IMG/VR virus record: IMGVR_UViG_3300042090_000890
Coordinates: 33,915-97,914 of that record
Source: a virus
Direction: 5' to 3' (one strand)
DNA length: 64,000 nt
Both the position numbers and the translations under genes were made by a program. This document shows positions 4,506 to 23,968 of this stretch, piece by piece (the first letter of the stretch is position 1; each line of letters begins with the position of its first letter). A model generated the notes under the pieces. The model did not search any database. It was not told where the DNA came from and saw only the letters and a program-made list of their open reading frames with translations.

Positions 4506-4947
4506 GATTCTAGTATGGCAAGTGAAAAATAAAATCTTCCAAAAGTTGTATAAATTTTTGGTATGGGCTTTCGGCATGGAAAGCGAGATCATCGATGTGC
4601 TCAATCGAGCCAGAGGCGAGATCACTGGCCTCCGTGCCGACAAGGAAAAGCTGGAGAAACAGGTTGTACTGCACGACCGTGGCACTTCCCTCGACGTACG
4701 TTCGTCACTCGCGGCTATCGATCTCGATTCGCTCGGAGAGATCATTTGGATAACGGTCGGCGACGAGCGCATGCTTAGGGCTGACGTCTTCAATCAGATA
4801 CGAGACTATTACAACACTCACGGAAAAGGTCACTCGATCTTGTTGGTCACTGGCCCGAACGTGACGTTCAAGTCTCTCACGGACGGAGATTTAGAAGAAG
4901 CTGGGCTTCGCCGACTTTCGAGGCTTGAGCGCATAGGCTTACGATGA
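4486..4947 (+). CDS. Hypothetical protein with a coiled-coil segment
   Basis: 153 residues from the ATG at 4486, which has GGAGG at 4477-4481. It overlaps the previous gene by 20 nt and the large terminase by ATGA. A basic, hydrophobic N-terminus (KNKIFQKLYKFLVWAFG) is followed by a short coiled coil (RARGEITGLRADKEKLEKQ) and a mixed alpha/beta part containing EIIWITVGDERML. The N-terminal stretch is AT-rich compared with its neighbours. Function unknown. Its place between the terminase genes suggests a role in packaging. Confidence 0.6.
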   Translation: MLSPKNRILVWQVKNKIFQKLYKFLVWAFGMESEIIDVLNRARGEITGLRADKEKLEKQVVLHDRGTSLDVRSSLAAIDLDSLGEIIWITVGDERMLRADVFNQIRDYYNTHGKGHSILLVTGPNVTFKSLTDGDLEEAGLRRLSRLERIGLR

Positions 4948-6851
4948 GTGTTTCCCGACCGGTCGATCCACATTTAGCTCAGACATTTCTAAAGCGCTTC
5001 ACGAGCCCGAAGCACGCTAAGACGTGGATTCACAATTTCCTCGATCTGGACTTCCCGGATTCGTGGGTAGACCCAGATTCGAATTCGAGTCCGGTGCATT
5101 GGCTATACGAAACGTACAAGATGTACGAGGCCAATATGGGCCACACGTCTCCGAGCACGATCGTGATTTCCTCGCGGGAGTCGTACAAGACACTTTCAGA
5201 AGCGGCGTTCGCAATCATCATGATGGTCCAATTCGGCGCCTCGATCGCTCATATGGCCGCTATCGTACCGCAGGCGACCGCCGCGCAGAATTACATTTCC
5301 ATGTTCATCGACAAGATCAAACCGTATCTGGAATACCACAAGATCGAGTTGGACTCGTCGAACGCAAAGGAAATCAGTTTAAAGCTGAATCCCGGCACGC
5401 CGGAAGAGAAACAGGCGTACATGAAGATCATCGTTTGCACCGTTACCGGCGCGAACAGTTCGCATACGAACATCTTCACGATCGACGAGATCGATACGAT
5501 CCGGTCTCGCGAGCAGCTGCGCGCCTACAAAGAAGCGGAGTACATTCCTGGAGTGTTCAACGGCCAGCATCCGGTTACGATCAAAACATCGACATTGAAA
5601 TTCCCTGGCGGACTATTTACCAAAGAGATGGAGAAGGCCCAGAAGTCCGGCCATCGCGTATTCCGGTGGAATATCATCGACATCACTGAGAAGTGTCAAT
5701 CGGCCCGACATCTGCCGGACAAGCCAAAGCAGTTCGTGTATGTTGCTCGCAGCCTGCCGCTTCGGACCATCACGGAAATCGAATATGCGAATCTGATCGA
5801 AAAGGAAAAAGAAGGTTTCGACCGTGTCGAGGCGTACGAAGGTTGCCTCAAGTGTCCTCTTCTTCCGGTGTGCCGCACCCGTTTAGCGCACCGCTCCGAA
5901 AAGGATGTTGGCGGTTTGTGGAAGCCGATCGATTTTACAATCTCACAGTTCGACAAAGACCCGGACCTGGCCGAAGCTCAGCTGATGTGCTGGAAGCCTT
6001 CGTCCGCTGGTATGGTTTATCCCCGATTCGTCGATCTCGCCGATGGGACCGGCAACACGTACAGTCTTAAGCAGGCGTGGGAAGTTTACACCGGAGAAAA
6101 AGCGCCGACAGGCCTCGTGTTCCCGCACCTGATCGAGTTCATGCTCAGCAAAGGTATTCGGTTCTATGCCGGTGTCGATTGGGGCACCACACATGCCTTC
6201 GCGATTTCGGTGTCCGCCAAGATGCCAAATGGCGAATGGTGGTTGGTAGACGGATATTCCGTACCGCAGCTCGAATTCGCCCAGATGATGGCGCTCGCGA
6301 TAGAAGTCCGGGACATGTACCGCGTCGCGCAGTGGTTCGCGGATACATCGGAGCCGATGTTCATCAAAGAATTCAAGAACGCCCGCATGCCATGCAAGAA
6401 GTTCACGAAGGATGTCTTCGGAGGCATCTCAGCTGTTCGCGGTCGGATTATCAACGCCCGCAACCGTCGGTTCTTGAAAGTCATCAAGCACGACCGAACT
6501 GAGCTGTTCATCAAGATGTTTGCGGAGCACTGCTTTAAACTGGATACCCTCGGCAATCTGACGAAGGACCCGGACGATGGTGAGTACGCAGATATCGCTG
6601 ACTCAGTGCGGTATCAAGCCCAGAACCTGTACAAGATTTCCAAGATCAATACTCCCCCGCCGCCGCAGCCGGTCAACCCGTTCGAACAGTTCTTTGCACA
6701 GACTCCTACTCCGGAAAAGCACTTTCAGGATTGGCAGACCCAGAAAAGACAGGTTTTGGACGGCGGAGACACCTCCGCAGGTTTGAAGGGAAAGTCGGCT
6801 GACGGGAACGTTATATGGGACTTTGGCACCGAAGAGGGTGCCGATGATTAG
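4944..6851 (+). CDS. Terminase large subunit (packaging ATPase and nuclease)
   Basis: 635 residues, with the usual two-domain layout. The ATPase domain has a deviant Walker A, SSRESYKT with K82, and a Walker B with catalytic glutamate, FTIDEID (D181, E182). The nuclease domain has the RNase H-like acidic triad GVDWGTT (D412), FADTSEP (D467) and DIADSVRY (D550/D553). It uses ATP to pump DNA through the portal and cuts concatemers. Between the domains is a Cys cluster, C301-x2-C304-x5-C310, that could bind zinc or an iron-sulphur cluster. The C-terminal 60 residues are Pro/Gln-rich. ATGA overlap upstream. The stop codon is followed at once by a CCTAATCTT box. Confidence 0.93.
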   Translation: MSVSRPVDPHLAQTFLKRFTSPKHAKTWIHNFLDLDFPDSWVDPDSNSSPVHWLYETYKMYEANMGHTSPSTIVISSRESYKTLSEAAFAIIMMVQFGASIAHMAAIVPQATAAQNYISMFIDKIKPYLEYHKIELDSSNAKEISLKLNPGTPEEKQAYMKIIVCTVTGANSSHTNIFTIDEIDTIRSREQLRAYKEAEYIPGVFNGQHPVTIKTSTLKFPGGLFTKEMEKAQKSGHRVFRWNIIDITEKCQSARHLPDKPKQFVYVARSLPLRTITEIEYANLIEKEKEGFDRVEAYEGCLKCPLLPVCRTRLAHRSEKDVGGLWKPIDFTISQFDKDPDLAEAQLMCWKPSSAGMVYPRFVDLADGTGNTYSLKQAWEVYTGEKAPTGLVFPHLIEFMLSKGIRFYAGVDWGTTHAFAISVSAKMPNGEWWLVDGYSVPQLEFAQMMALAIEVRDMYRVAQWFADTSEPMFIKEFKNARMPCKKFTKDVFGGISAVRGRIINARNRRFLKVIKHDRTELFIKMFAEHCFKLDTLGNLTKDPDDGEYADIADSVRYQAQNLYKISKINTPPPPQPVNPFEQFFAQTPTPEKHFQDWQTQKRQVLDGGDTSAGLKGKSADGNVIWDFGTEEGADD

Positions 6852-8541: not shown

Positions 8542-10740
8542 ATGGCCAACGAAGAAGGCAAGAAAAAGCGGTACCAACAGAGACAAGAAATTGTCGCGTT
8601 GGACCCCAACGCTTTGAAGTTACTCAAAGCGGAAGCTGACGCTCGCCAGAAATCCAACGATGAAGAAGAAGTCACTCCGGCGGATACCGGCGTGTTGGGC
8701 GAGATCGTAAAATCGATCAAAGCTCAGAACGCGATGCAGGCGGCCCAACTGGAGCGAATGTCGTTCCAGGTCGACCCGAACGCGAACTACTCCGGCGCTC
8801 TCGGTTTTTACAAGCTCAAGCAGAACTTAACTCCTGATCATATCATCAAACGGATCTGCGGTCCGGGCGGCGACGAACTCGTTAACGAGATTCTCCAAGC
8901 TCGCTCGAATCACATCTCGTCCTTCGGTCGGCCACGTACCGATCGTTTCAGTGTAGGCTTTGAATTCCAAGACATGGACAAGAACGCCAAGCGTTCGGAA
9001 GAAGATCAGCGGAAGATCCAAGAAATGATCGATGCCGCTAAGAAGACCTTCTGGCAATGCGGTCGCGGTACGCTCGAAGGCGAACTCGACCAAGTAAACC
9101 TGTCTCAATTCTTAAAGCTGGTGACCCGCGATGGACTTGGATTCGGACGCCTAGCTACTGAAAGAGTTTGGTGGACCAATCCAAAAACTGGCAAGAAAGA
9201 GCTGTACGCATGGCGCGCAGCCGATGCCGGAACAATGCTCAAGATTCTGCCGCAGAAAGAGCACGATCAATCTCTCCGCCAAGAAGCTATTCGTCAGTTG
9301 CAACAGATCAAAAACAAAAAGATCGACATCGAGAAGTACAAGAAAGATGAGTACCGCTACGTTCAGGTTATCGAAGGTAAACCTATTCAGACATTCACTG
9401 AAGAGGAAATGGTCATCTACAATTTGTATCCGACGACCGGCATCGAATACAACGGTTACCCCCTGACCCCGATCGATCAAGCCCTTAACGCAATCACGAC
9501 TCACATCAACATCACGGTCCATAACAAACTGTACTTTCAGCACGGTCGCGCATCCAAAGGGATGTTGGTATTCCAGTCGGATTCTATGGACGAGGCAGCT
9601 GCCCAGCGCATTCGCCTACAGTTCCATCAGTCTATCAACTCCGTCCAGAACTCGTGGCGCATGCCGGTGTTCGCGATCGGGTCTGAGGACAAACTGACTT
9701 GGGAAGCAATCGACAACTCAGGCCGCGATGCAGAGTTCCAATACCTCATGGACAACAATGCTCGGGTGATCTTGTCGGCGTTCCAGATGTCGCCGGAAGA
9801 ATTGCCGGGTTACGCCCACCTCGCTCGCGGAACGAACACGCAGGCTCTCTCGGAATCTGACAATGAATGGAAGCTCACCGCAGCCCGCGACGTTGGTTTA
9901 CGTCCTCTGCTAAGCGACATTCAAGATTTCTTGAACACGCACATTCTCCCGTTCGTCGACGCGGAACTCGCGAAGACGCACCAGATCGTGTTAACTGGTC
10001 TCGACAAGGATTCTCCGGAAAAAGAGAATACCCGCCTGCAGCAAGATATGGCCGTTCACATGAACTACAACGAAGTCATGGAACAGGTCGAGAAGAACCC
10101 GATCCCGGTCGAACTGGGCGGCGACTTCCCTCTCAATCCTCAGTACCAAGCAGTCGCGGATAAGTACCTCACGGTCGGCCAGATCCTGGAGAATTTCTTC
10201 AAGGTCAAAGGCGCCGCATCCGATCCTCGTTATCAGTACATCCGTGATCCGTTCTGGTTCCAGAACAAACAGCTCATCCTCCAGGAAGCTCAGATCGCGA
10301 TGCAGCAGTCCATGCAAGCTCAACAGATGATGCAACAGCAAGCGCTGGCCGAGCAAGGTATCGCGACCGATGAGAACGGCAACCCCGTTCAGCCCGGTGA
10401 CGATGACGACAAAGGCGGCGGAGATGACTCCGGCGGAGACGATGATTCGGGCGGAGACGACTCCGGCGGCGGAGATCAGCCTCCGGAACAGACATCCAAG
10501 GCGGAGAAAGCGATCGACATCGTGAAAGAAATCACTGCCAAGAACGTGGCCTGGTCGGCGAACAACTACGTCGTCCTCGAAAAGGCCATCCGCAACAATC
10601 ACAACAGAATCTCGCGACAGCTCCTGAAGCGTCACAATGAACTTGTGACGGCCACGATGGATAACTGGAAGCGCCAGTCCGCGAAGGAACTGGCAGCCAT
10701 GGGCAAAGCGCTCAAAGACGGTAAGAAGAAGGGGAGCTGA
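8542..10740 (+). CDS. Portal protein
   Basis: 732 residues. The central region reads as an HK97/SPP1-type portal: TFTEEEMVIYNLYPTTG, YNGYPLTPIDQALNAITTH, then long helical stretches and LSESDNEWKLTAARDVG. The portal dodecamer at one head vertex passes DNA and binds terminase and neck. It lies between the terminase and the MuF-like protein, the standard order. The C-terminus carries a Gln/Met-rich helix and then an Asp/Gly/Ser low-complexity segment (about 10396-10488) of DDDxxGGGDDSGG type before a basic helical tail. The stop overlaps the next start by one base (TGATG). Confidence 0.85.
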   Translation: MANEEGKKKRYQQRQEIVALDPNALKLLKAEADARQKSNDEEEVTPADTGVLGEIVKSIKAQNAMQAAQLERMSFQVDPNANYSGALGFYKLKQNLTPDHIIKRICGPGGDELVNEILQARSNHISSFGRPRTDRFSVGFEFQDMDKNAKRSEEDQRKIQEMIDAAKKTFWQCGRGTLEGELDQVNLSQFLKLVTRDGLGFGRLATERVWWTNPKTGKKELYAWRAADAGTMLKILPQKEHDQSLRQEAIRQLQQIKNKKIDIEKYKKDEYRYVQVIEGKPIQTFTEEEMVIYNLYPTTGIEYNGYPLTPIDQALNAITTHINITVHNKLYFQHGRASKGMLVFQSDSMDEAAAQRIRLQFHQSINSVQNSWRMPVFAIGSEDKLTWEAIDNSGRDAEFQYLMDNNARVILSAFQMSPEELPGYAHLARGTNTQALSESDNEWKLTAARDVGLRPLLSDIQDFLNTHILPFVDAELAKTHQIVLTGLDKDSPEKENTRLQQDMAVHMNYNEVMEQVEKNPIPVELGGDFPLNPQYQAVADKYLTVGQILENFFKVKGAASDPRYQYIRDPFWFQNKQLILQEAQIAMQQSMQAQQMMQQQALAEQGIATDENGNPVQPGDDDDKGGGDDSGGDDDSGGDDSGGGDQPPEQTSKAEKAIDIVKEITAKNVAWSANNYVVLEKAIRNNHNRISRQLLKRHNELVTATMDNWKRQSAKELAAMGKALKDGKKKGS

Positions 10741-11621
10741 TGAAGCTCACCGACGCCCAGCGGAATGTCATCATCGAACGCATTGAGTCTCTCTTCGAGG
10801 GGACCAAAGCGCGCCTGTTAGGGTCGATGTTCAAAGGCCCGAAGCTATACTTCGAAGTCGTCCGTCGGTCGGACCCTCTGCATACTATCGAAGGCTTGTA
10901 CAATTTCACGCTGAAGACCATGTACGGCGCGACTGCCGAGCCGAACAAGAAAAATATCGAACATCTAGCTGAAATAACTGGGAATTATATGGATTCCCAG
11001 CAGCTGAAGATCAAGAATCACATCTTGGCGGACGTGGCCAAGGCTAAAACGCCGTCAGAAGCGATCCGCTCGATACGCGGTCACTTCGAGCAGGCCGGGA
11101 AGTACGTCGATCTGCTAGTATCGAACGAAACCCGCATCGTTCAGACGTACGCCTCGCGCGAAGGTATCGGCAAACTGGCGTCGGACATCGGAGTGAAAGA
11201 CCCGACCGTCGTATTCCTAGGCGTTTGCGACCATAAAATCTGTAAGTATTGCAAGAGCATGTACCACGACTCTGCGGCGATCCGCAAGCCGAAGCCGTAT
11301 AAGCTGTCTCAGGTACAGGAAGGGTATTTCAAGCCGAAGGATTGGGACGGGAAGACGCCGCACCAGGCTCCGCTACATCCGCGTTGCCGACACGTAATGA
11401 GCTTCGTGCCGCCGAACTTCGGGTTCAACGACGCAGGCGTGATCGAGTTCAAGGAATTCGGCTACGATTACCACAAAGAGTACTGGAAGCTGAAGAAAGC
11501 CGAGGAACTGCCGCCTGACTCAACACCCATGGCGAGTTTCCTGAGTTACGACGAGTACTTGGAGATGAATATCATCCACGAAGCTGAACATCTACACGAT
11601 GAGTTCTGCACGCACGATTAG
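10740..11621 (+). CDS. Mu F-like minor head protein
   Basis: 293 residues. It carries the MuF signature: a Cys/His cluster C163-x4-C168-x2-C171 followed by LHPRCRH (H213, C216), which probably binds zinc. An N-terminal helical region precedes it. MuF/SPP1 gp7-type proteins sit inside the head near the portal and are often ejected with DNA. The position directly after the portal supports the call. The stop TAG is immediately followed by a CCTAATCTT box. Confidence 0.8.
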   Translation: MKLTDAQRNVIIERIESLFEGTKARLLGSMFKGPKLYFEVVRRSDPLHTIEGLYNFTLKTMYGATAEPNKKNIEHLAEITGNYMDSQQLKIKNHILADVAKAKTPSEAIRSIRGHFEQAGKYVDLLVSNETRIVQTYASREGIGKLASDIGVKDPTVVFLGVCDHKICKYCKSMYHDSAAIRKPKPYKLSQVQEGYFKPKDWDGKTPHQAPLHPRCRHVMSFVPPNFGFNDAGVIEFKEFGYDYHKEYWKLKKAEELPPDSTPMASFLSYDEYLEMNIIHEAEHLHDEFCTHD

Positions 11622-11630
11622 CCTAATCTT
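11622..11630 (+). promoter_or_regulatory. CCTAATCTT box, candidate late promoter
   Basis: Exact copy directly after the MuF stop codon and 17 nt before the TTG start of the prohead protease. No clear ribosome binding site lies between the box and the start, so this may be a short-leader transcript. Confidence 0.6.
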
Positions 11631-11647
11631 CTAATAGATATACATAC

Positions 11648-13396
11648 TTGGTGGTCACTTTGGGTCTGAAGATTGACGGTATCGCGACATCTGAACACAT
11701 TGATTCGTCCGGTGAATTGCTCATCGTCGAGAATCATGACATCTCCGATCTTGTGTCGGGCAAAGGCGTCATGAATTGGGAGCACTCCAATAAGTCCGAT
11801 GACACGATTGGAGCAATCATCTACGCCAAGAAAATTCTCAAGAAGACCGACTGCGAGAACGACCGCCAGCGAAAATACTGGAATACCGTCAACAAGCCGT
11901 TCGTTTACATCATAGGCGAGCTGTACGATGACGAGGAACATTCAGGTGCGCTTGCCGTCGCCGCCATGATCCGGTACTACGCCAAGAAATCTGAGAATCT
12001 CCTGACAGGCTTCTCCATCGAAGGCGCCACGCTCGAACGGGATGATTATATCCTGAAAGAGTCTGTCGGTCGCCGGGTAGCCGTCACCCTCCGCCCGTGC
12101 AATAAGACTGCAATCGCTGGGTTGCTGGAAGATCCAAAAACGAAAGATATCGCTAAGTCGATCGAGGCAATGATGGCCCGCGTCGATGGCAGCCTCGTCG
12201 AAATCGACTCGGTCATCCTCGACGATATGTTCATGCCGAAGGACCCGATTCTCGACCTACATAAGGCCGTCGAAAGTCTCGCGAAGTCGATCGAAGCGGG
12301 CATGTACAATGTCACTCCGTCGCAGTTGATCGGCCAAGCCGCACTTACCCGCGAGCACATCAGCGGATTCCAGCGGAACCGTGTTAAAGCTGCCGTCCGC
12401 GATTGGGACCGCAAACGTCCTCTCAAGGAAGTTCTGAAGAGCGCTCTACCGGAAGTGTCTGACGATTACATCGGACATTTCGAGAAGTTGGCCGAAGAAT
12501 TGGCACTCAAGAAAAACATGCCATCCACGAAATTAACTCGCGTTGGGGCTAGACATTCGCCAAATCAACATCAAAATGAAGACCAACAGAAGTTGATCGA
12601 AGGCTTGTACTTCGACCCGAAGAGAAAGTTCGGCGGTAAAGATTTTGATCCTGGCCACACCGGCTATCAAACCGCGATCACGAAGCATAAAAATGACGCA
12701 GGCGCGAACGTGTTGGTCAAACAGCCCACGGGCAAATGGGCAGAGAACGCCACTCATTACTACGAGAACGCTCGCGATGTTTTTGGAATGGGCAATCACG
12801 TACCGGTTACGAATTATTTCAAGCCGCCCAAAGGATCTCAGAAATGGGATATGACTACCGATACTACGGATCGTCAGCCTGAAGGCCTGCATCATCAAGC
12901 GATGGAACTTGTCGATAAAGCCAAATCGCCAATGACCATGAACGACAAAGACCTGGCTAAACCGTTGCAAAGAGCATATGATAACGGAGACTTGAACAAA
13001 CTCATGATGATGGATCAGATTCTAGGCGGAGCGTCGGATAGACACCACGGAAACTATCTGATTCATCCTAAAGGCCACGTTATGAACATCGACAACGATC
13101 AGGCTTTTTCTTACAATATACCGGCTCCGACACCGGCGTACATGTATCAGCACATCGATCAGCCGATACACCCGGAAGCGTCAAAATGGATAAAAGGAAT
13201 TGATCCAAAAGCGTTGATCGGGAAGATGGCGGACCAAGGTCGTTCACCGGAAGAAATAAAATCCGCCGCTATGATTCTTAAACTGCATCAGAAATACGCC
13301 GACAAGCCTATGACAGGACGCCAACTGTGGGACACTATAGGCAATCATGCTACGGCAGTTCGTCGTGAAGAGCAGCGCAAGAAGAAGGTAGCATGA
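11648..13396 (+). CDS. Prohead protease fused to a kinase-like domain
   Basis: 582 residues. Residues 1-170 read as a phage prohead protease: VMNWEHS (candidate catalytic His), KPFVYIIGELYDDEEHSGA, then LLTGFSIEGATL (candidate catalytic Ser) and VAVTLRPCN. It would cleave scaffold and capsid during head maturation. Residues about 210-240 repeat a motif of the capsid N-terminus (EAGMYNVTPSQL). Residues about 330-540 contain GANVLVKQ (possible ATP-binding lysine), SDRHHGN (D464-N469) and NIDNDQAF (D482/D484), the catalytic-loop and metal-binding pattern of PI3K/HipA/Fam20-like kinases. The start is TTG at 11648 or GTG at 11651, both without a Shine-Dalgarno sequence. The protease call is good. 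The kinase fold is inferred. Confidence 0.75.
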   Translation: MVVTLGLKIDGIATSEHIDSSGELLIVENHDISDLVSGKGVMNWEHSNKSDDTIGAIIYAKKILKKTDCENDRQRKYWNTVNKPFVYIIGELYDDEEHSGALAVAAMIRYYAKKSENLLTGFSIEGATLERDDYILKESVGRRVAVTLRPCNKTAIAGLLEDPKTKDIAKSIEAMMARVDGSLVEIDSVILDDMFMPKDPILDLHKAVESLAKSIEAGMYNVTPSQLIGQAALTREHISGFQRNRVKAAVRDWDRKRPLKEVLKSALPEVSDDYIGHFEKLAEELALKKNMPSTKLTRVGARHSPNQHQNEDQQKLIEGLYFDPKRKFGGKDFDPGHTGYQTAITKHKNDAGANVLVKQPTGKWAENATHYYENARDVFGMGNHVPVTNYFKPPKGSQKWDMTTDTTDRQPEGLHHQAMELVDKAKSPMTMNDKDLAKPLQRAYDNGDLNKLMMMDQILGGASDRHHGNYLIHPKGHVMNIDNDQAFSYNIPAPTPAYMYQHIDQPIHPEASKWIKGIDPKALIGKMADQGRSPEEIKSAAMILKLHQKYADKPMTGRQLWDTIGNHATAVRREEQRKKKVA

Positions 13397-13998
13397 AAGT
13401 CTACGTAATCAAATCAGATCATTCCGAAGTGCCGTTAGCCGAAGTCCGCACGGACGGCGATACGGCCCACTTCGTAGTCGACAATACAAACGGAAAACTG
13501 CCCCAGATGGTCCAGAGCAGTCTGCCAAAATTACGTGCGATTTGCGACAATTCTTCGCATATGCACATGGAAGAGCCGAAAACAGCGACCGTCAATCTTC
13601 TGCGGTACGTTATGGACAACGGTGATGTGGTCGAGATTACGTCGGACGGCCATACCGTCATGCTCAACGGACACCTCCTGCCGCAAGAAGAGAAGGATGC
13701 GTTGTTCAACGCCTTTACGCGTGGCGAAATCAAAGTCGCTCGTAAGACCGATGTACAGCAGGCATTGCCGGTCCTCCCGTCGAATCCGCCGTCGGAGTAC
13801 GCTAAGCCGCAGAGCAAGATGAATCCGACAGTGCTTGGCATGATAGAAGATGACCAAGACAAAAAAGATACCGCCCGTGAGATGGCCACTCGCGACTATG
13901 ATCCGGCCATTGACGATGCCGAGCTGTCTGATGTAGAAGATGCTGATTGGACGAAAGAATTGATGCGCTGGCTCAAATACGGTGACAAAAATGAATGA
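13393..13998 (+). CDS. Hypothetical acidic protein
   Basis: 201 residues, coupled to the protease gene by ATGA. The N-terminal 60 residues look like a compact alpha/beta unit (MKVYVIKSDHSEVPLAEV) and the next 40 like a small beta domain (VVEITSDGHTVMLNGHLL). The C-terminus is acidic and disordered (DYDPAIDDAELSDVEDADW) and ends in an amphipathic helix. No family recognised. It sits between the protease and the giant repeat protein, so it is probably a head-assembly or internal head protein. Confidence 0.6.
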   Translation: MKVYVIKSDHSEVPLAEVRTDGDTAHFVVDNTNGKLPQMVQSSLPKLRAICDNSSHMHMEEPKTATVNLLRYVMDNGDVVEITSDGHTVMLNGHLLPQEEKDALFNAFTRGEIKVARKTDVQQALPVLPSNPPSEYAKPQSKMNPTVLGMIEDDQDKKDTAREMATRDYDPAIDDAELSDVEDADWTKELMRWLKYGDKNE

Positions 13999-16900
13999 CG
14001 AAAAGAAATTAGCACCAGACGTACCGGCTGACACACTCCACGCTCACGTGGAGCGCCATATGGCATTACCGGAAGAGTCTCAGTCAGACAATGACAACGA
14101 AGACTTCGCGGCTGAAGTCGCCTCGCATCCGAACCTTGCGCCGCATTCCATTGAGAAGCTGTACAACCACGTGATGAAGCCTGTATCTGCCAATTCTACG
14201 ACGGCGGCCACTGGCGAAGCAGAGCCGATGTCGAATGTGATCGTCGGTAATCTGCTTAGAAATCCTAACGCACCGCAGAATATCAAACAGGACTTTGCGC
14301 TCAAGACGTTTCATCCCGACAATCCGTCGTCCGATCTGCACGAAGAGTTGGCTGATTCCGGCATTCTGAACGAACAGCAATTGAAAGGCATGTCCGAGCA
14401 GGTTTTGAAAGCTGGCAAAGAGCCACACGCATACAAGCACCTTGGCCCGAATTACTACATGAAGTATTTTCGAGGCCGGTCGCAGCAGGACCCCAACGAA
14501 CTCGACGAGGACGGGAAGGAACAGCATTCTCGCGAGATGGAGCTGGGAGAAAAAGGGTTAGTTAACTCGTCTAGGCACACGCCGGAGACATTGGATCAGA
14601 CGATCGACGCGTTTTCGGCTTCGAAACATGACCCGCACGGCCTTATCGAAAAATTGGTTAACAATAGAGAAGACTTGTCTAAAGACCAATTGAATAAGAT
14701 CCATCAATGGTATGATTCCAACAAAAATGAAAAGAGCAACGCCTACAACGACGACTATTATCATAGGCAGCGCATCGATAGCTTGCTAGAGCATAAGAAT
14801 GTCGATCCAGCGTTGCTTGCCAAATATGCTGTAGGCAAACGGGTCAGCACAGAAGCTCTCAAAAATCCACGCCTGCCGCAGGAATCGATCAACGGTATCA
14901 TAAAACGTATAAAAGATCCCAACGAATGGGACACTCGGAACAGGGTAGAAAGTCTTCTCGAAAATCCGTCTATATCGAAAGACCAGGTTCGCGCATTGAT
15001 TCAGAAGGGTTCCAATAAAGCCATCAAGCATCCTCTGGCCGACGAAGCCGCTGTCCGCGACTATTGGCAGAAAGGTTCAAAGGACCTAGACTCATCCCGC
15101 GATATCTTGCAAGCGAAGAATTTACCGCCAGACGTGTTAAAAGAGCTTGTCAATCACAAGAATCAGGAAGTCGCCGTCAAAGCTCTCAACCATCCCAGAG
15201 CGGACATGGACGTGGTCAACGAAGGTCTCAAACGCCGGGCAAAGACCGTACAGGATGCCGCACGGCTACATCCGCTTGTAGCCGAGCAACAGGTCAAAGA
15301 AGGTTTGAAATCGGGCGCGACATCTCTCGCGAACGTGTACACAGATCCGAAATTCGAAGCGCAGTTCGACAAGCTCCCGAAGGTGGACCAGGAAGCGATC
15401 TTCAATAAGGCACACGAGAAGTACCAAGGTACCAACCTCGCCGAGTTGGCCAAGAAGACCAAGGAACGTTCTGAAAACGTCATCAACAGCAAGATGAACC
15501 TGGCCATGGACGAGCGCGTCCCGGCAGCCATCCGCGAAGCGCATGGTAAAGACATTGCCAATATGTTCGAGGATCAGGTCCCGAAGAATCAGATGCTGGT
15601 CCAACGCACGACCGACGTGATGAGCAAAAATCACCCGGACGACAATTCTCGTCTGGTGACGGCCATTTCACATCTTGCGATCAACGGCAACAAAGATGCC
15701 CAGAGAGCGATTCTCAATAATCCTGGCTATCTCTCGGAAGTTCAATCCAATCTGGACTTGAAAGACGCCGAACCAGATTTCCTGGAAAGCGTATATCGCA
15801 AAAGACAGGAGAATCAGGCCAATAACGTACAACTGTACGATCGCGTCGGACACCCGGAATTGTTCGATAAATCCGGCCACACGCTCAGACGTGTTTTCGA
15901 AGCTCCCAACTTGCCGTCTAATGTGTTCGACGAGATTGCTCGGAACGGACAACAGATGGACCAGATCGGTGCCGGAGACTATTTCAAAAGATACAATGAT
16001 CTGCCTGAAGACCAACAGAATCAGAAATACGAGCACATTCTAAATTCCGGTTCGCAAAAGGCAGCCATTTCAGTCGTCCGCGCTAAAGCGCCTCCGGCAT
16101 CTTGGGACCGTGCATTCAACATGCTGACCCCAGACAATAAGCAACGTCTGATCAAAGACGAAGTCGATCACGTGAAAAGTCATAGGCCGGACGTTTTCCA
16201 CAATGCCGTGCTGGGCATGTACAATGATCCGGCAGACGCAGATCGTCCTGGCATGAGCAGATACGAGAGCTATCAAGCGAAAGCCGTTAGCAAATTAGAT
16301 CCGGAATCGCCGAATGACCGCTCGGTACTTGAACAGCTGATCTCAATCCCAGAGGCTCAGCCAGGGCATATGCCAGACGAAGGATTGCTGGATAATATCC
16401 CAGAGAAAATGTACAGCAAGCCCGGTGACGATTCTCTGATTGACCATGCAGCAGCTTCCGGTAAAGGTCCTCTGGCATACAATATGCTTGCCCGGAAGAT
16501 GAACACTCTCAGTCGTGAGGCGTACGTCGGCAGTTACGAATCGGAAGATAAGAAAGCAGCAGCCAGACAGAAAGCTGAAGACCTTGTTACTTACTTGCAC
16601 GGACGTGTTGCGTCGATGCCATCTTTCAGCGACGCGGATACAGATAATCCGACCGCCGAGAATTGGTACTCACTGATGACTCGTCAGAAGCAAGGGTACC
16701 ACGACGATCGGTTCATGGGAGCTTTGAAAAAAGCAGGTGCGAACCTCGATTTCTTGGCCGACATGCCCGGCAAGGACGGCGAACTCGTAAAACGCCAGGC
16801 GCTCACGGACAACCTTCTGTCTACGCAGAAGCTGCAAGAAATGTCGCAGGCCAATTCTGTGAAAGATATTCTGGCCATCGGCAGTCCAAAGTTACGTCAG

Positions 16901-19900
16901 CAATCTTTGGATTCTTGGGTCGTCCAAGGAAATCATACGCCCGAAGATTTAGAACACCTTGCCAACAAAGTTGACGCATCGGTGCTCAATCCGGAGTCGT
17001 TCGAACACGGTCGCCGTAAGTCCATGGGCGAAGAGGCTGTCAACGTATTTAATTCCCGCATCAACAACTTGATAGACTTGTACAGGACAAAGAGTCCAGA
17101 CAGTCTCACGCATGTGATCAACAATGCTCTGCAAGTCAGCCGCTCTGACGACGATCTCACCCAAGAAGATGGCCGCCGCATCGTAAAAAATATCTTGAAT
17201 CACGTCAACGGCGCAGCATACGGTTCGCCGGAAGAGAAAGCGTCCACGCTCCTGAGCACGTACATGGCTCTCAAAAAACGAGAGATGGCGCCCGCCAATA
17301 TGGGCAAGCAAATAGAGCGTGCTGCCGTAGAAGGTAAAGACTACGACACGATGATTAAGCTGTCGGATCACAAGATGCTTTCCGAAGAGGGCATAAGCTC
17401 TTTGATGAAAGCCGCCGCGCAGCCACAGACGCTCAATTCGCGCCAGATCGCAGGCGTATCCTCGATGCTCACTTCGAATACTCCGCCTAGCGCTGTACTT
17501 GACACCGCCAAGGCCTTCGAGAACAAAACGGCGCAGGAAGTGGCCGAAGGTAAACGCCCTTCGCCCGCCGACCGAACGAAGTTGATGAGGAATCTGTTCG
17601 GCACGTTCAGCCCCAGTGAGTCCGGCCCGGAAGAAGTTCAGAAGAACGAGTTTTTAGTCAACTACATGAAAAAACAAGCGCTGGACCCGGCAGTCTCCAG
17701 ATACGCCAATACGCATTTGGCAAACATGTCTGTGCAGTTGGCAGAAGCTGGCGACGAAGATCAAGGCATCAGTCTATGGGAACAATTGCCGAATCAGTTG
17801 ACAGATTTCGACGGCAACTATCCTGACATACAAGGTGCTATCCCGTCAAAAATGCTCAACGACCCTCGTTTCATTGAGGCCTGCGGATCGGGATGGAAAC
17901 TTTCGTCCCTGGCCATAAACGCCGATAGGCTCACAGGTGCGAATGCCTCTACCCTCACGAATCGTGCGTTGGCCGCCGAGCCATACACTGTTGACCACCA
18001 GCAGTTGTTCCGAAATTTTGAAAATAACGAGTTCGTGGCACCAGAAGATTCTGTCAAGTTGGCGCGCAGCATGCCCGATGACAAGTTCAATTCTCTCACT
18101 CGCGAGCTTGGCCAGTCCATGGCAGGCAATCTGATATATGCTGCCCATGCCAGGATTAGAGATGTCGACGCGCTTGTAAAAGATCCGAATCTGGCTGCCC
18201 CGAACGCGCCGTTTATGGGAGCTGAACACCGCAACAAGATTCTGACAAATCTTGATGCATATGCCACTGCCATCAAAAACGCTGATGTTGAAGAAGAAAC
18301 GCCGAATTTGAAGGACAAACTTGGCAAAGTGTCCGAAATGATTGGTACGATCCACGGCCACTTGAAGACGATCGCCAATCATATGCGTTTGCAGGCGCCA
18401 GACCAGGTAGACAATATTGAATTTGCTAGGGATCACGCCGCGATGCTGACTACGCTCAGTAAAATCGCTACCACTAATCTGCAATTAGACCGCGACGATG
18501 CACTCAAAGTTATGGATATGGTAAAAGAATACCACTCTGTTCAGCAGGCAGCCGGTAAAGAACCTATGCCAGAGAAGACGTATCCTGCCACAAAGGGCCT
18601 CGTCGCCCGCGCCGAAAATTTCGAGGAGCAGGATTGGCGGGAAATGTTCAAGGCCGACCCACACGCAATTTACGCGCTGAGCGACCGAGCCACTATCCCT
18701 ACTGAAGCCTTGAACGCCGCCGAGATCACCAAGATCGAAAAGTCTCGCAACAAAGACGAGAATCGAGCCAAGACCTTGTTCGTTAAGACGTCCAAGGATT
18801 GGTTCTCGAAGATGTCGAAGGAAGACGTTGCTCACCACGGCAAGGATCTTCTGCATCTGTACATCAAGCTGAAAAATGCCGATGAAATCTTCCATAACGA
18901 TTACACGTATGCGATGGAAGAGGGCATGAAGTACATGGGCGACAGTATGTCGCACAAGGAACTAACCGATCTTCTACAAGAGTCCGGCGCTTCTGACTTG
19001 CGAAACTCGTTGTTCAAGACTGCCGTCGAAAACGGTGTGGGCGGCGTAGAAAGTTTGAAAGCGTACGCCAAAGAATTCCACGACCAGATATTCTCAGGTC
19101 ATTCAGATATACATGACATGGAAGCGTCGAATTTGAAGATGAAGTTAGAGCCAATCACAGCATCGCCGTACATAGATGAGGATCTCGCAGGACAAGTGTT
19201 CGATATGTACGATAGGAATAAGGGCGCCATGCACGCAGCCGCAGTTGACCTATTGGCTAATACATCAACTCCAGCGAAATCCGTGAAAAAGTTCACCGAC
19301 ACATTACTCCAAAATCATAAAGACGGATACAAGGACATTAATAAGAGAGCCTCTGCGAATCTGGCAAGTCAGATTATGCAGCATCCGAATGTGTCCGAGG
19401 AAGACCTTGGCGAACTTTTCGCTCTCAGCAACGAGCAGTTCCCGAAATACTTCGCTCCGTCTGGGAAGTTCAACCCGGCGCTAACGAATCCGACGTACGG
19501 CGGCAAGCTGTTCCGAGCCATGCCATTGGCTCTTCCGGAATCTCAAAAGATGGGTCCGAAAGGTGAAGGCGGTACGGTAGATGAAGGAAAGTGCCTCCGG
19601 GACATTAACTTGCAGCACAAGGATTACGAGCGCATGAAGTCGACCATGGCCATGATACCTGCCGAGGGTATGGCCTGGGCCGAGTTCAAGCGCAAGTTCC
19701 CGGCAGAAGAAAAATCTCTGCCGCCTTCCGTCAAAGCTGTGTTCACGTCAGCTCAGAACAAACCGGTCATGCCTGAGCAATTCGCGCAAGCTATGCGTTC
19801 GCTGGATGATAATTCCAAGAAGTACCACCTGACGTATTCGGAATGGGGATCTGGCCTGCAGCGTCATAACCCTCCTGGCCGCCCGAACTTGGTTGTTCAA

Positions 19901-20584
19901 GTAAACAATTCCGAGGCTTCCGAGAAGGAACTTTCGCAGGACCCTAAACTTTGGTCGTTGTACCAGCATCTACTCCAACAAACGAACGGCATTTCGAATG
20001 GTTCGATCGGCATGCATCCGACTACCCCGCACATGGTTTCCTGGTCGCGCGTCGACACTGATCAGCAGACGAAAGGTAAGAACGCATGGGCGATCGAAGA
20101 GTACCAATCTGACTTTGCTCAGAAGTTCCGCCGCAACTTGAAAGCTCTGGCCAGCAAGTTCCCGTCCGGAACGAAGCTGAGCGGCCAGCATGTAACCGCC
20201 GAGGACATGAAAAAGTACGCGAAGACGATCGACAATCACCTTTCGGACTGGACGGAAGCATCCATGCAGGCGGTGATCGACAACGCGAAGGCGCAAGGCG
20301 TCACGCATTTGTACATGCACGGTGCCGAGATGCGCGGGTACATGTCGAACGGCGGGCGCTACAGCCGCGAGTTCTGGGATAATCCGAACACCAAACCGTT
20401 CACGGTTGGGTTCCGGAAGATTTACGGCGAAAATCCTGCAAAATTTGGCTTCAAGGAATGCGACTATACGGATTACCCGAAGCATAACAAGGACATGCTC
20501 AACAATTTGAAGAAAAACAAGCTGTCCACGAAGTGCTGGGTTCTTGAGCTGCAGCCTCCGGCGCCCAAGAAGAAAAAAGCCTAA
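13991..20584 (+). CDS. Giant alpha-solenoid-type virion protein (2197 residues)
   Basis: Largest gene in the window. I chose ATG 13991; GTG 13982 is in frame but has no better ribosome site. The N-terminal ~500 residues carry short helical repeats of the form hP.hp...l..L (HPNLAPHSIEKLYNH, NPRLPQESINGIIKR, HPRADMDVVNEGLK), like leucine-rich-variant or HEAT repeats. Similar units recur throughout, for example HPNVSEEDLGELF. The last ~230 residues contain WSRVDTDQ, WAIEEYQSDF and VIDNAKAQGVTHLYM. This resembles the 'EIQSDW' domain of large polyvalent proteins of mobile elements. No transmembrane segments are evident. It lies among the head genes and is probably an internal or ejected protein. 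Function is unproven. Confidence 0.65.
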   Translation: MNDEKKLAPDVPADTLHAHVERHMALPEESQSDNDNEDFAAEVASHPNLAPHSIEKLYNHVMKPVSANSTTAATGEAEPMSNVIVGNLLRNPNAPQNIKQDFALKTFHPDNPSSDLHEELADSGILNEQQLKGMSEQVLKAGKEPHAYKHLGPNYYMKYFRGRSQQDPNELDEDGKEQHSREMELGEKGLVNSSRHTPETLDQTIDAFSASKHDPHGLIEKLVNNREDLSKDQLNKIHQWYDSNKNEKSNAYNDDYYHRQRIDSLLEHKNVDPALLAKYAVGKRVSTEALKNPRLPQESINGIIKRIKDPNEWDTRNRVESLLENPSISKDQVRALIQKGSNKAIKHPLADEAAVRDYWQKGSKDLDSSRDILQAKNLPPDVLKELVNHKNQEVAVKALNHPRADMDVVNEGLKRRAKTVQDAARLHPLVAEQQVKEGLKSGATSLANVYTDPKFEAQFDKLPKVDQEAIFNKAHEKYQGTNLAELAKKTKERSENVINSKMNLAMDERVPAAIREAHGKDIANMFEDQVPKNQMLVQRTTDVMSKNHPDDNSRLVTAISHLAINGNKDAQRAILNNPGYLSEVQSNLDLKDAEPDFLESVYRKRQENQANNVQLYDRVGHPELFDKSGHTLRRVFEAPNLPSNVFDEIARNGQQMDQIGAGDYFKRYNDLPEDQQNQKYEHILNSGSQKAAISVVRAKAPPASWDRAFNMLTPDNKQRLIKDEVDHVKSHRPDVFHNAVLGMYNDPADADRPGMSRYESYQAKAVSKLDPESPNDRSVLEQLISIPEAQPGHMPDEGLLDNIPEKMYSKPGDDSLIDHAAASGKGPLAYNMLARKMNTLSREAYVGSYESEDKKAAARQKAEDLVTYLHGRVASMPSFSDADTDNPTAENWYSLMTRQKQGYHDDRFMGALKKAGANLDFLADMPGKDGELVKRQALTDNLLSTQKLQEMSQANSVKDILAIGSPKLRQQSLDSWVVQGNHTPEDLEHLANKVDASVLNPESFEHGRRKSMGEEAVNVFNSRINNLIDLYRTKSPDSLTHVINNALQVSRSDDDLTQEDGRRIVKNILNHVNGAAYGSPEEKASTLLSTYMALKKREMAPANMGKQIERAAVEGKDYDTMIKLSDHKMLSEEGISSLMKAAAQPQTLNSRQIAGVSSMLTSNTPPSAVLDTAKAFENKTAQEVAEGKRPSPADRTKLMRNLFGTFSPSESGPEEVQKNEFLVNYMKKQALDPAVSRYANTHLANMSVQLAEAGDEDQGISLWEQLPNQLTDFDGNYPDIQGAIPSKMLNDPRFIEACGSGWKLSSLAINADRLTGANASTLTNRALAAEPYTVDHQQLFRNFENNEFVAPEDSVKLARSMPDDKFNSLTRELGQSMAGNLIYAAHARIRDVDALVKDPNLAAPNAPFMGAEHRNKILTNLDAYATAIKNADVEEETPNLKDKLGKVSEMIGTIHGHLKTIANHMRLQAPDQVDNIEFARDHAAMLTTLSKIATTNLQLDRDDALKVMDMVKEYHSVQQAAGKEPMPEKTYPATKGLVARAENFEEQDWREMFKADPHAIYALSDRATIPTEALNAAEITKIEKSRNKDENRAKTLFVKTSKDWFSKMSKEDVAHHGKDLLHLYIKLKNADEIFHNDYTYAMEEGMKYMGDSMSHKELTDLLQESGASDLRNSLFKTAVENGVGGVESLKAYAKEFHDQIFSGHSDIHDMEASNLKMKLEPITASPYIDEDLAGQVFDMYDRNKGAMHAAAVDLLANTSTPAKSVKKFTDTLLQNHKDGYKDINKRASANLASQIMQHPNVSEEDLGELFALSNEQFPKYFAPSGKFNPALTNPTYGGKLFRAMPLALPESQKMGPKGEGGTVDEGKCLRDINLQHKDYERMKSTMAMIPAEGMAWAEFKRKFPAEEKSLPPSVKAVFTSAQNKPVMPEQFAQAMRSLDDNSKKYHLTYSEWGSGLQRHNPPGRPNLVVQVNNSEASEKELSQDPKLWSLYQHLLQQTNGISNGSIGMHPTTPHMVSWSRVDTDQQTKGKNAWAIEEYQSDFAQKFRRNLKALASKFPSGTKLSGQHVTAEDMKKYAKTIDNHLSDWTEASMQAVIDNAKAQGVTHLYMHGAEMRGYMSNGGRYSREFWDNPNTKPFTVGFRKIYGENPAKFGFKECDYTDYPKHNKDMLNNLKKNKLSTKCWVLELQPPAPKKKKA

Positions 20585-20588
20585 CCTT
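20580..20588 (+). promoter_or_regulatory. CCTAACCTT, one-base variant of the late-promoter box
   Basis: Overlaps the stop codon of the giant gene and lies 7 nt before the ATG at 20596. One mismatch (T to C) from CCTAATCTT. The layout is the same as at 46503, where an exact copy is 6 nt from an ATG. Confidence 0.4.
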
Positions 20589-20595
20589 TCAGTCT

Positions 20596-21039
20596 ATGAA
20601 TATAGATATCGATTCCTTTTCAGCCGAAGTGACCCAAGAACTGGCCATGTCGCCGCTGGAAAAGGCTCTCCCGCCAAAGCTAAGGTATCGTTTTTACAAG
20701 TGGTTGAAGCAATATCGACATTTGCCAATGCAGCAAGCAAAACCGTCGATGGTCAACAAAACGATCCAGGCAGCTTTCGAGCACATGTCGGCCATCAAAG
20801 AGTTGAAAAAGAACGAATGCATGGTATCTGCTTTCGAAAACGGCGCGATCCGAATGGACTTCGGCGAAGAAGTCGACCCGAAGATTAAGAAAGCCGCAAT
20901 GCAGTGGGCCAAGAAAAAAGGGCTCAAGACGATCGAGGCTTCCATAGAAAAATCGGTCGCAGCTCCGTCATATGTGATCTGTGGACTGTCAGAACCGCCT
21001 AAAGGCGTCTGCGTCGATTACATCAAATACTCTCTCTAA
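20596..21039 (+). CDS. Hypothetical protein with a possible leaderless start
   Basis: 147 residues. The 11 nt between the previous stop and this ATG contain no Shine-Dalgarno sequence, only the end of the box variant. Translation must depend on a leaderless mRNA or on coupling. The first half is basic and helical (LPPKLRYRFYKWLKQYRHLP); the second half looks alpha/beta (CMVSAFENGAIRMDFGEEVD, TIEASIEKS). No family recognised. It is the last gene before the strong regulatory gap ahead of the capsid genes. Confidence 0.6.
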   Translation: MNIDIDSFSAEVTQELAMSPLEKALPPKLRYRFYKWLKQYRHLPMQQAKPSMVNKTIQAAFEHMSAIKELKKNECMVSAFENGAIRMDFGEEVDPKIKKAAMQWAKKKGLKTIEASIEKSVAAPSYVICGLSEPPKGVCVDYIKYSL

Positions 21040-21047
21040 AAATTTTT

Positions 21048-21086
21048 TAGTCAACCAAATCAATAAGTTAACCATTTTGGTCAACT
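21048..21086. promoter_or_regulatory. Operator-like inverted repeat upstream of the capsid operon
   Basis: The 108-bp gap 21040-21147 holds three related boxes: AGTCAACCA (21049-21057), AGTTAACCA (21066-21074) and inverted TGGTCAACT (21078-21086). The last two form a 21-bp near-palindrome with a 3-bp centre and one mismatch. The box TAGTCAACCAAA (21048-21059) also resembles the spacer of the minus-strand promoters at 25077 and 55781. A repressor or activator site is likely. A divergent promoter is possible. Confidence 0.45.
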
Positions 21087-21093
21087 ATTGGTA

Positions 21094-21102
21094 CCTAATC
21101 GT
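21094..21102 (+). promoter_or_regulatory. CCTAATCGT, one-base variant of the late-promoter box
   Basis: Lies 45 nt before the ATG at 21148, directly after the inverted repeat. One mismatch (T to G at position 8). It is the only box not attached to the end of a gene. It would serve the most strongly needed operon, that of the capsid. Confidence 0.4.
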
Positions 21103-21147
21103 ATGGTCTGTAGAACGAACGTTCAATCCTTAATAGGAGGATAAGAT

Positions 21148-21639
21148 ATGAGTGCTTTCACCGCCCAGGCAAAAGTCAGAGAACTGACGCAGCGACTTCA
21201 GTTGCTGATGCCGACTGCTACGATTACGCAGGCGCTTGACGCCAATGGTTATCCGGCAATCAACGTGGCCTACAACACGGCTGTTGCCCAGACCAAAGTT
21301 CTGCAAGATCCCGCCCAGTCCGCAACCGATCCGATGATCGGCGGCGTTCCCGGTCCGGCATATCGCGTGAACGGCCTCGGTCTTGCTCAGACTGCTTACA
21401 GCCCGCACGTCATCGAATTGCTGCAAGACAGCGATCAGACCGACGCGGACAGTCAGTCGTTGAAAGCTCGATTGCATCAAGCTCTCGGAAAGATGGGACT
21501 CAAGATTTTCATCAGTCAAGCTACGCAAGCTACGATTTTGGCGGCTCCAATCGCCTCTTTCGATGCTACTTTCGCAGCTGCGACTCCGTTGATCTCGATT
21601 CCGTCCGACGAAATCAATCCTCTTATCCAGAGTTCGTAA
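21148..21639 (+). CDS. Putative capsid-associated protein
   Basis: 163 residues with a strong ribosome binding site (AGGAGG about 6 nt before the ATG). It is the first gene of the scaffold-capsid operon. Rich in Ala, Gln and Thr with few charges. The middle is Pro/Gly-rich (DPMIGGVPGPAYRVNGLG). The end contains QATQATILAAPIASFDATFAAATPL, which I give only as a composition note. No family recognised. Position and composition suggest a decoration protein or an additional virion protein made in high amounts. Confidence 0.55.
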   Translation: MSAFTAQAKVRELTQRLQLLMPTATITQALDANGYPAINVAYNTAVAQTKVLQDPAQSATDPMIGGVPGPAYRVNGLGLAQTAYSPHVIELLQDSDQTDADSQSLKARLHQALGKMGLKIFISQATQATILAAPIASFDATFAAATPLISIPSDEINPLIQSS

Positions 21640-21670
21640 TAGGGCTCTAACTAAGAAAGGGAATTGGAAC

Positions 21671-22516
21671 ATGAATAAGCCAAAATGGACTGACCAAGAC
21701 GTACAGAGCATCCTTGACAGCGTTGAAGAAACGATTGCCAAGGCCGAAGCTCTTGCGAAGGCAGATCCGGCTGATCCAGATCCGAAGGACGATAAAAATG
21801 CGCCTCCGGATCAGTCAGCTGCACCGGCTTCTTCTGACGCGCCGCCTTCCGGCGACGCTCCTCCTGCAGATGGTTCGGCAGACGGCTCTCAGCCGCCTCC
21901 GGACGGTTCGCAACCTCCGATGGACGGCTCTCAGCCGCCCGCAGAAGGCCAAGAACAACAACTTGCAGCCGAAGGACAACCTGGTGAAGACCAGCCCCTG
22001 TCTGACGAAGAGCTGGCTCAGATTTACGGATCGATGCCGCCCGACGAACTTGAGAGACATTACTCGATCATCCGACAGCAGCTCCAAGCTGCCTACAGCC
22101 AAGATCAAGGTGCCGCTCCTGCTGCTCCTGAGTCTGCTGCTCCTCCCGCTCCTGCTGCACCGGCACCGCAAGGTCCGCCGCAAGAGATGGGCAAGTCGGA
22201 GAAAGATGTGATCGCTGCTCTCGAAAAGCGCGTGGCACAAGCCGAAGAAGCCAATCAAATGGTTGTGAAGGCTTTCGAAGCCCTCGCAAAACCGGCCCGC
22301 AAGTCGATTACCGAGATTCAGGTCATGAACAAGACCGAAATCGATAACTCGCAGCAAACCGGCCCGATGACGGTCGAGCAAGTCAAAGAGAAAGCCCGCA
22401 AGCTCTCTCCGGCCAAGCTCGAAAAGTCGGAACGTGACCTGATAAACCGCCTCTTCATCTCAGGTGAAGGTGCAGAAGAAGTTGAACGAATTATCCACTC
22501 TAAGGGAGGGAAATAA
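21671..22516 (+). CDS. Probable capsid scaffolding protein
   Basis: 281 residues immediately before the major capsid gene, the usual place for scaffold. The first ~165 residues are disordered, acidic and Pro/Ala-rich, with tandem DGSQPP units (about 21895-21945). The C-terminal half is charged helix (EKDVIAALEKRVAQAEEANQ), typical of scaffolds that bind capsid subunits through a basic C-terminal helix. It ends with an Arg/Lys-containing helix and GGK. No sequence signature exists for this class, so the call rests on context and composition. Confidence 0.65.
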   Translation: MNKPKWTDQDVQSILDSVEETIAKAEALAKADPADPDPKDDKNAPPDQSAAPASSDAPPSGDAPPADGSADGSQPPPDGSQPPMDGSQPPAEGQEQQLAAEGQPGEDQPLSDEELAQIYGSMPPDELERHYSIIRQQLQAAYSQDQGAAPAAPESAAPPAPAAPAPQGPPQEMGKSEKDVIAALEKRVAQAEEANQMVVKAFEALAKPARKSITEIQVMNKTEIDNSQQTGPMTVEQVKEKARKLSPAKLEKSERDLINRLFISGEGAEEVERIIHSKGGK

Positions 22517-22518
22517 TA

Positions 22519-23910
22519 ATGGACGATCTAGTCAAGACTCTTGAGAGTCTCGTGAAAACCTTGGAGGCCGGTAACTACAACGTAGCGCCGTCGCAGTTGG
22601 TCCAAGGATCAGCACTCCAGATCGAAAACCTTGAGCCTGTGATGCACAATGTGACGTTTGACGACAGTCACATCAAGCTTCAGAAGCTCTTCTCGGTGAA
22701 GAAAGCCAAGTCATTGCTTGTGCAGTTCAACCGCCAGCTGTCTTATGGACGGTTCGGTGGAACAGCGCAGCGTGAAGGCGCGGTTGGCGACTTGAACGTC
22801 GGCGACTATATCCGGGCTACGGTTCCGATGTGTTTCTACTCTTGTGTTGAGCGCGTAACGATCGCGGCCAACATGGTTGAGACCATCGACGGCAAGAAAG
22901 CCGAAGACCGTGAGGCAGATAACGCCGCAATCAAATTGTCGGCGGACATCGAGTTCGACTCTTTCAAAGGAAAAGCCGATTTCTCGAACAACGGCGTTTT
23001 CGACGGCAACCCGGCCCTCATGCCGGAACTTCCGAGCATGCTCGGTCTCGACTCGCAAGTTCGCATGTCAGACATCCTCGTTTCGACGCAGGATCTGATG
23101 TTCGCATCTTACGGATCGAACAAGTCGGTCGTTCTCTCGCAGAACGGTTCGCTTGATCAGCCGATCATCGAATCCGCAGCTCTCCGCAGCCGCATGAACA
23201 TGGGTAAAGCAGAAACCATGTTCGTTGACCCGGTCATTCTGTCCGGTTACAACACCTCGGTCGCTCTCGGTACGGGCGTGAACTCGATCCAACGGATCGT
23301 GCTCGCAGGCTCCGCACAAGACGCTACCGGTGCTGACCTTCGCAGACAGTGGGTCTCGAACGGAACAGTCGGTCTCGAAGACTCGCGCTTCTTGTCCGGC
23401 AAAACCTCGCCTCTTCGCGCAATGATCGGCAGCCCGCTCCCGCCCGCAACTGCGGTCGGCACGCCCTCCGGCTCCGGCGCTCTCATCCCCGCTGGCACGT
23501 ATGTGTACGGTGTGACGGCTGAGAACGAACGCGGTGAAGGCGTCGAGATGTTCTCGGCATCTGTTGTGGTCGCAGCTGGCCAGCAAGTGGCTCTCGTGAT
23601 CGCAGGCGTTGCAGGCGCTTCGCTCTACAACGTGTATCGCGGCACTTCGGCCTCGAACGCTTACTACATCGGTCGCATCGCTGCGAACGGTTCCGCAAGC
23701 GTGACCTTCACCGATCTCGGCAACAAGTCGCCGGGCTTCGTGACCGGTTACCTCGTCCAGAAGGACACTTGGGGATTCCACGAGTTGGCTCCGTACTCAC
23801 GTATGAAGCTCGCAATCGCGGACTTGAGCGTTCCGGAAGCGCACTTCCGCTTCCTGACTCTCGCAGGCTACCAGCCTCGCAAGAACGTCATCGTCGACAA
23901 CTTGTTCTAA
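22519..23910 (+). CDS. Major capsid protein with an Ig-like insertion
   Basis: 463 residues in the capsid position after the scaffold gene. The N-terminal arm holds EAGNYNVAPSQL, a motif shared with the prohead protease of this phage and of a type common at the start of HK97-fold capsid proteins. The body (YGRFGGTAQREGAVGDL, RMNMGKAETMFVDPVILSGY) fits an HK97-like subunit. Residues about 310-410 form a separate beta domain (PAGTYVYGVTAENERGEG, LYNVYRGTSASNAYYIGRI), like an FN3/Ig insertion that would project from the capsid. A terminator follows at 23942. The capsid call is strong from context. Confidence 0.8.
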   Translation: MDDLVKTLESLVKTLEAGNYNVAPSQLVQGSALQIENLEPVMHNVTFDDSHIKLQKLFSVKKAKSLLVQFNRQLSYGRFGGTAQREGAVGDLNVGDYIRATVPMCFYSCVERVTIAANMVETIDGKKAEDREADNAAIKLSADIEFDSFKGKADFSNNGVFDGNPALMPELPSMLGLDSQVRMSDILVSTQDLMFASYGSNKSVVLSQNGSLDQPIIESAALRSRMNMGKAETMFVDPVILSGYNTSVALGTGVNSIQRIVLAGSAQDATGADLRRQWVSNGTVGLEDSRFLSGKTSPLRAMIGSPLPPATAVGTPSGSGALIPAGTYVYGVTAENERGEGVEMFSASVVVAAGQQVALVIAGVAGASLYNVYRGTSASNAYYIGRIAANGSASVTFTDLGNKSPGFVTGYLVQKDTWGFHELAPYSRMKLAIADLSVPEAHFRFLTLAGYQPRKNVIVDNLF

Positions 23911-23941
23911 TAGAGCAAGGTAAAAGAAAGAATTCGAAAAG

Positions 23942-23964: not shown

Positions 23965-23968
23965 CATT

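Follow-up and report, generated by a model that had tools for sequence, protein, structure and literature searches.

Why should a phage join a kinase to the protease that matures its head? The question is raised by an open reading frame in the window, the 64,000-nucleotide stretch that we analysed from a 97.9 kb virus record (IMG/VR IMGVR_UViG_3300042090_000890). A preliminary description, made from the letters of the DNA, had read this frame as a prohead protease fused to a kinase-like domain. The ORF is encoded between the portal gene and the scaffold and capsid genes, which is the position of a maturation protease (Table 1). Translation could equally well begin at a second TTG, at 11660, which coincides with the start of the homologue at locus L003, and the same protease-kinase architecture is found at related loci L006, L007, L010, L012, L014, L021, and L044. 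A search for Rfam families in positions 10000-24500 found none, and a scan of genome contigs for hosts gave a single match, in a Saccharibacteria MAG. Between the fusion and the scaffold/capsid genes lies a 2200-aa ORF (13982-20584, + strand) without a convincing Pfam match; the protease is likewise trailed by long ORFs in L002 and L018. In L002, moreover, the minor head protein and the protease are separated by an extra 262-aa ORF (5210-5998) that by eye resembles a GIY-YIG homing endonuclease.

Table 1. Features of the fusion gene and its head-gene neighbourhood, in window coordinates.
Feature	Coordinates	Strand	Basis or remarks
Terminase large subunit	4944..6851	+	phrog_5653, E 4.7e-14
Portal protein	8542..10740	+	phrog_15361, E 5.8e-23; PF04860, E 4.7e-12
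Minor-head-like protein	10740-11621		
Protease-kinase fusion ORF	11648..13396	+	intact, 582 aa, TTG start
Head maturation protease domain, ~residues 5-161	11660..12130	+	phrog_1028, invariant columns
Capsid-N-terminus-like element, residues 213-237 (KSIEAGMYNVTPSQLIGQAALTREH); predicted autocleavage between K213 and S214	12284..12358	+	capsid comparison
Conserved helical linker, residues 238-291, between site and kinase	12359..12520	+	alignment; helices in full-length model
PI3/PI4-kinase-fold domain, residues 312-570	12581..13357	+	K358, D464, R465, N469, D482
Major capsid protein, presumed protease substrate	22519..23910	+	phrog_752, E 1.5e-34; Gp6.1 of 9vel, E 3.6e-17
Major capsid protein N-terminus, residues 1-37, same element (K13-T14, LEAGNYNVAPSQLVQGSALQIEN)	22519..22629	+	

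The N-terminal part of the protein matches the PHROG 1028 family 'head maturation protease' over residues 9-155 (E = 8.8e-7), which bears out the earlier reading of about 170 residues as a prohead protease. Across an alignment of 15 homologous full-length proteins, H46 (N-x-E-H) and S123 (S-I-E-G) are invariant and likely form the catalytic pair, and near-identical His and Ser motifs occur in the proteases of Listeria phage P100, Enterococcus phage Revolver, and Bacillus phage SPO1L5. Having both the family match and the conserved His and Ser, the domain belongs with PHROG 1028 and the herpesvirus-assemblin-like type. In a Foldseek search with the full-length model, kinases were the only proteins among the matches listed, and no solved structure there matched the protease half.

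Because an initial protein scan of viral contigs found no relatives of the kinase, homologues were gathered by way of the protease and of small alignments. A search with the protease alignment returned 60 loci, and iterative HMM searches yielded 35 ORFs with a kinase-like region (including a few fragments and near-copies), 30 of which were aligned; a 28-row kinase alignment held no stretch conserved enough to serve as a search query. Beyond the window copy, 29 proteins from viral contigs and phage Mx1 contain the kinase domain, which is therefore far from a chance resemblance. Pfam family PF00454 (PI3_PI4_kinase) matches 27 of the 30 domains (E<=1). Scanned alone, the window domain only just reaches the curated cutoff, with 27.1 bits against 27.1 (E = 4.8e-6); the match goes unreported when the full-length protein is scanned, probably because of HMMER's filters. 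When the kinase profile was compared with the PDB, PI4KA was found at E = 2.5e-6.

Structure prediction, which the preliminary description had put forward as a check on the kinase fold, came out in its favor. AlphaFold2 modelled the domain with a pLDDT of 90.3, a pTM of 0.90, and a full C-terminal helical lobe, and the top solved fold in Foldseek was PI4KII-alpha (4hne; E = 5.4e-7, TM 0.63), followed by a weaker match to the HipA-like CtkA (TM 0.43-0.47). Together, the Pfam and PDB profile matches, the model, and the Foldseek result make the kinase fold solid and its subtype PI3/PI4-like. The original assignment to PI3K/HipA/Fam20-like kinases thus holds for its first member: HipA_C and HipA_2 each match only 2/30 domains and the window copy matches neither, while the Fam20C family (PF06702) shows weak matches in 4/30 (best 0.0015) and none to the window domain. 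Weak NdhO matches over the catalytic loop are chance similarity and are superseded by PF00454. The region first given for the kinase, residues 330-540, was right and its best bounds are slightly wider; the two motifs that had drawn attention to it, DRHHGN and IDNDQAF, lie at residues 464-469 and 481-487, and homologues have the D-R-H/N-x-x-N and D motifs, as had been expected. Judged by sequence and model, the kinase is PI3/PI4K-like and not HipA- or Fam20-like, and its predicted substrate would be a lipid, a protein, or a small molecule. We regard the identities of the two fused domains as close to certain. A second kinase-like ORF lies in the window outside the head cluster (34285-36078, + strand, 597 aa, DRHHGNLMV...IDHERNF) and matches PF00454 above the cutoff (E = 1.2e-6).

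The alignment also bears on whether these domains are active. The catalytic DR is kept in 25/30 kinase domains, and the beta-3 lysine, the R, the N, and the second, metal-binding D form nearly invariant columns, all intact in the window copy. In five of the 30 domains (L016, L017, L018, L026, and L030) the catalytic aspartate has been lost with the domain still in place, so catalysis appears dispensable in those lineages. Between the kinase domains of L031 and L032, dN/dS is ~0.015, indicating strong purifying selection; for pairs that include the window copy, dS is saturated and gives no dN/dS value.

The principal new result is a short element between the two domains. An HMM built on the protease region picked up, in addition, the N-terminal end of the major capsid protein from the same phage (E = 6e-9), and the two proteins have in common the consensus K-[STA]-x-x-A-G-x-x-N-x-x-P-S-x-L-x-x-x-A-A-L-x-x-E. 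In the window, the protease copy and the capsid copy (KTLEAGNYNVAPSQLVQGSALQIEN) are identical at 14/25 positions, with an ungapped score of 68 against a maximum of 32 over 300 shuffles. The consensus is present in 52/60 proteases, scoring above the maximum of 1200 shuffles; L058 has a kinase and no recognizable element, and the element is weak in L036 and L048. Among 30 phages with both proteins, protease and capsid of the same phage share 15.1/25 residues versus 12.3 when permuted (0/5000 permutations as high), a similarity for which shared ancestry of the whole phage may be a partial cause. Outgroups carry lineage-specific versions of the element in both proteins, with 18/25 identities in P100, 14/25 in Revolver, and 13/25 in SPO1L5.

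Capsid structures point to a cut just past the lysine of this element. The full-length capsid sequence of a related phage (PDB 5lii), which we take to be a staphylococcal, Twort-like phage, has K24-S25 at the aligned place, and the 439-residue capsid chains of 9row, 9rox, and 9roz start at S25, directly past the aligned lysine. In the full-length model of the fusion, residues 163-169, 174-199, and 211-238 fall below pLDDT 50, and such low confidence around K213 is as expected for an exposed cut site. The simplest reading, and a probable one, has the protease cleaving itself as well as the capsid protein at the K-S/T/A junction; cleavage of capsid and scaffold by the window protease is putative, with the shared site as its basis. 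The earlier suggestion of autocleavage between the domains thereby gains independent support from the capsid-like K-S site, from which we infer the cleavage. The proteases of P100, Revolver, and SPO1L5 have 202-264 aa, lack a kinase, and stop soon after the element. Given that these short proteases end there, the kinase of the window lineage is a module added behind a probable self-cleavage site.

Other relatives carry other modules in the same slot. By ORF count, near-copies included, the C-terminal module is a kinase in 29, a GGDEF (diguanylate cyclase) domain in 8, and something else in 12, with 9 cut by contig ends. The GGDEF matches are well above cutoff in L038, L043, L048, L054, and L061, and the protease tree implies at least four changes between kinase and GGDEF. 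L066 shows a weak acetyltransferase match. Structure predictions for viral proteins also contain this kinase fold, in entries labelled portal, head morphogenesis, and ADP-ribosyltransferase. The locus thus combines an enzyme domain fused to a head component, a head-gene context, and module variation, the features of polyvalent, virion-delivered effectors, and a module neighborhood of this kind is typical of such proteins (PMC5512222).

Three further observations concern the layout of these relatives. A separate GGDEF gene lies closely downstream of the fusion in L023, L025, L028, L031-L034, L037, L047, L051, L058, and Mx1 (Pfam-confirmed for L023 and Mx1), which suggests that many phages with such a gene carry both kinase and cyclase. 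L039 (8847-12269) has an intein-like insertion in the protease linker (PF14890, E = 1.9e-9), and its kinase is on a separate overlapping ORF (12251-14284). Long relatives (L004 14259-15332, L025 9063-10136, and others) contain a conserved ~350-residue domain with an invariant VPDTH between the protease and the kinase or GGDEF domain; an impression by eye that it is a DNA glycosylase received neither support nor a match in Pfam and PDB searches.

With an apparent cutting site of its own between protease and kinase, the protein would probably free the kinase inside the new particle, to be carried to the next cell. We propose that the maturation protease serves as a carrier for the kinase, and we give the whole chain of events a probability of about one half. 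The full-length fusion would enter the prohead by its protease moiety; during maturation, the protease would cut its own linker at K213-S214, the equivalent of the capsid propeptide site, and release a ~369-residue fragment whose C-terminal part is the PI3/PI4K-fold kinase. This fragment would be retained in the head, ejected with the DNA, and would phosphorylate a host target early in infection. Precedents exist for parts of this scheme: protease gp245 of SPN3US, which is present in virions, auto-cleaves a C-terminal propeptide (PMC10052503), and the enzymes of T4 Alt and of MuF fusions are delivered from heads (PMC5512222). As a counterpoint, the freed fragment might be degraded, like many prohead core proteins. 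More tentatively, this lineage of large tailed phages may use its maturation protease as a general self-releasing loader. Whichever enzyme stands behind the K-S site (kinase, diguanylate cyclase, or perhaps acetyltransferase) would be taken into the prohead and released there by a cut that leaves it a capsid-type N-terminus, and would then travel to the next host and rewire its signalling.

Other roles for the domain have to be weighed against delivery. The kinase could work during assembly in the producing cell, phosphorylating capsid, scaffold, or portal or regulating the protease, with no part to play in the next host. It is made in a late head operon next to the portal, scaffold, and capsid genes, and the fusion brings it into contact with head proteins. 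However, the GGDEF domain found in the same slot is a second-messenger cyclase without an evident head-protein substrate, and head maturation in P100, Revolver, and SPO1L5 proceeds with a short protease that lacks any such domain, so we consider an assembly role unlikely. We also doubt, and somewhat strongly, that the main role of the domain is structural, as a pseudokinase whose fold serves as a scaffold or fills the core and whose activity is incidental or lost. The five domains that persist without their catalytic aspartate speak for such a role, but the catalytic residues are retained in most of the family and in the window copy, and the L031/L032 pair is under strong purifying selection.

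A different objection concerns the element, which could be a capsid-binding or targeting sequence instead of a cut site, leaving an intact protease-kinase anchored in the head that may still be ejected. Comparison of 9row with 5lii indicates that in mature staphylococcal phage capsids the element past the cut is retained, implying a function beyond being removed, and its conservation runs on for ~25 residues from the lysine, a longer stretch than cleavage alone would require. Against docking as the sole role, which we hold to be improbable, mature capsid chains start at the conserved K-[STA] junction, and C-terminal autocleavage has been documented in another prohead protease (PMC10052503). 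Docking and cleavage are also mutually compatible.

If release and delivery of the kinase occur as proposed, the loader would represent a separate delivery route from those that rely on MuF, the portal, or T4 propeptide targeting. It would provide a concrete way of loading signalling enzymes into the head in step with maturation, and the predicted release site is defined down to a single residue. Phages may, on this view, adjust host phosphorylation and the level of c-di-GMP as early as injection. The capsid-like element, in turn, offers a means to predict cut sites and loading signals in other head proteins. Since the cultured Myxococcus phage Mx1 shares the arrangement, the idea is open to laboratory testing.

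Mx1 is the closest known parallel. Its 'putative prohead protease' (WNM70322.1, 1239 aa) combines, as in the window, a protease, a capsid-like element, and a C-terminal PI3/PI4K-like domain (DRNDGN, IDN) that matches the window kinase at a blastp E of 1e-17, and Mx1 was the only match to the kinase domain query among 50,697 phage records. It differs in having ~600 extra residues between site and kinase, an annotation as protease only, and a GGDEF gene just downstream; the Mx1 genome paper (PMC10720576) neither discusses the protease nor mentions the fusion. The head region of Mx1 also encodes a 1479-aa protein (L005 405-4844; record 24404-28843) that is annotated as a NUDIX hydrolase and also has ART-PolyVal (E = 2.8e-16) and acetyltransferase matches, and the next gene encodes a separate 619-aa PI3/PI4-type kinase.

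Beyond Mx1, each half of the fusion has known counterparts. Maturation proteases of the Herelleviridae type (Listeria P100 gp15, SPO1-type, and Enterococcus Revolver) resemble the window protein in PHROG 1028 homology and in the capsid-like K-S element behind the protease, and differ in their short length and lack of a kinase. With type II PI4K and other PI3/PI4 kinases (PF00454), the window domain shares fold and catalytic motifs at low identity (~14%). Polyvalent proteins are head-gene-linked multidomain proteins with kinases, GGDEF, GNAT, and ART domains, for which delivery has been predicted; their assemblin-like (prohead-type) peptidases are always C-terminal, and their kinase family is without a C-lobe (Iyer et al. 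2017, PMC5512222). In the window protein this order is reversed, with the protease N-terminal and the enzyme behind it, and its PI3/PI4K-like kinase, with a full C-lobe in the model, is not a member of that family. Our search of the open-access literature did not turn up any account of a maturation protease that bears a PI3/PI4-type kinase or a GGDEF domain. As in MuF fusions and T4 Alt, a head-located protein would deliver an enzyme to the host; unlike them, the carrier here is the maturation protease itself, with a putative release site built in.
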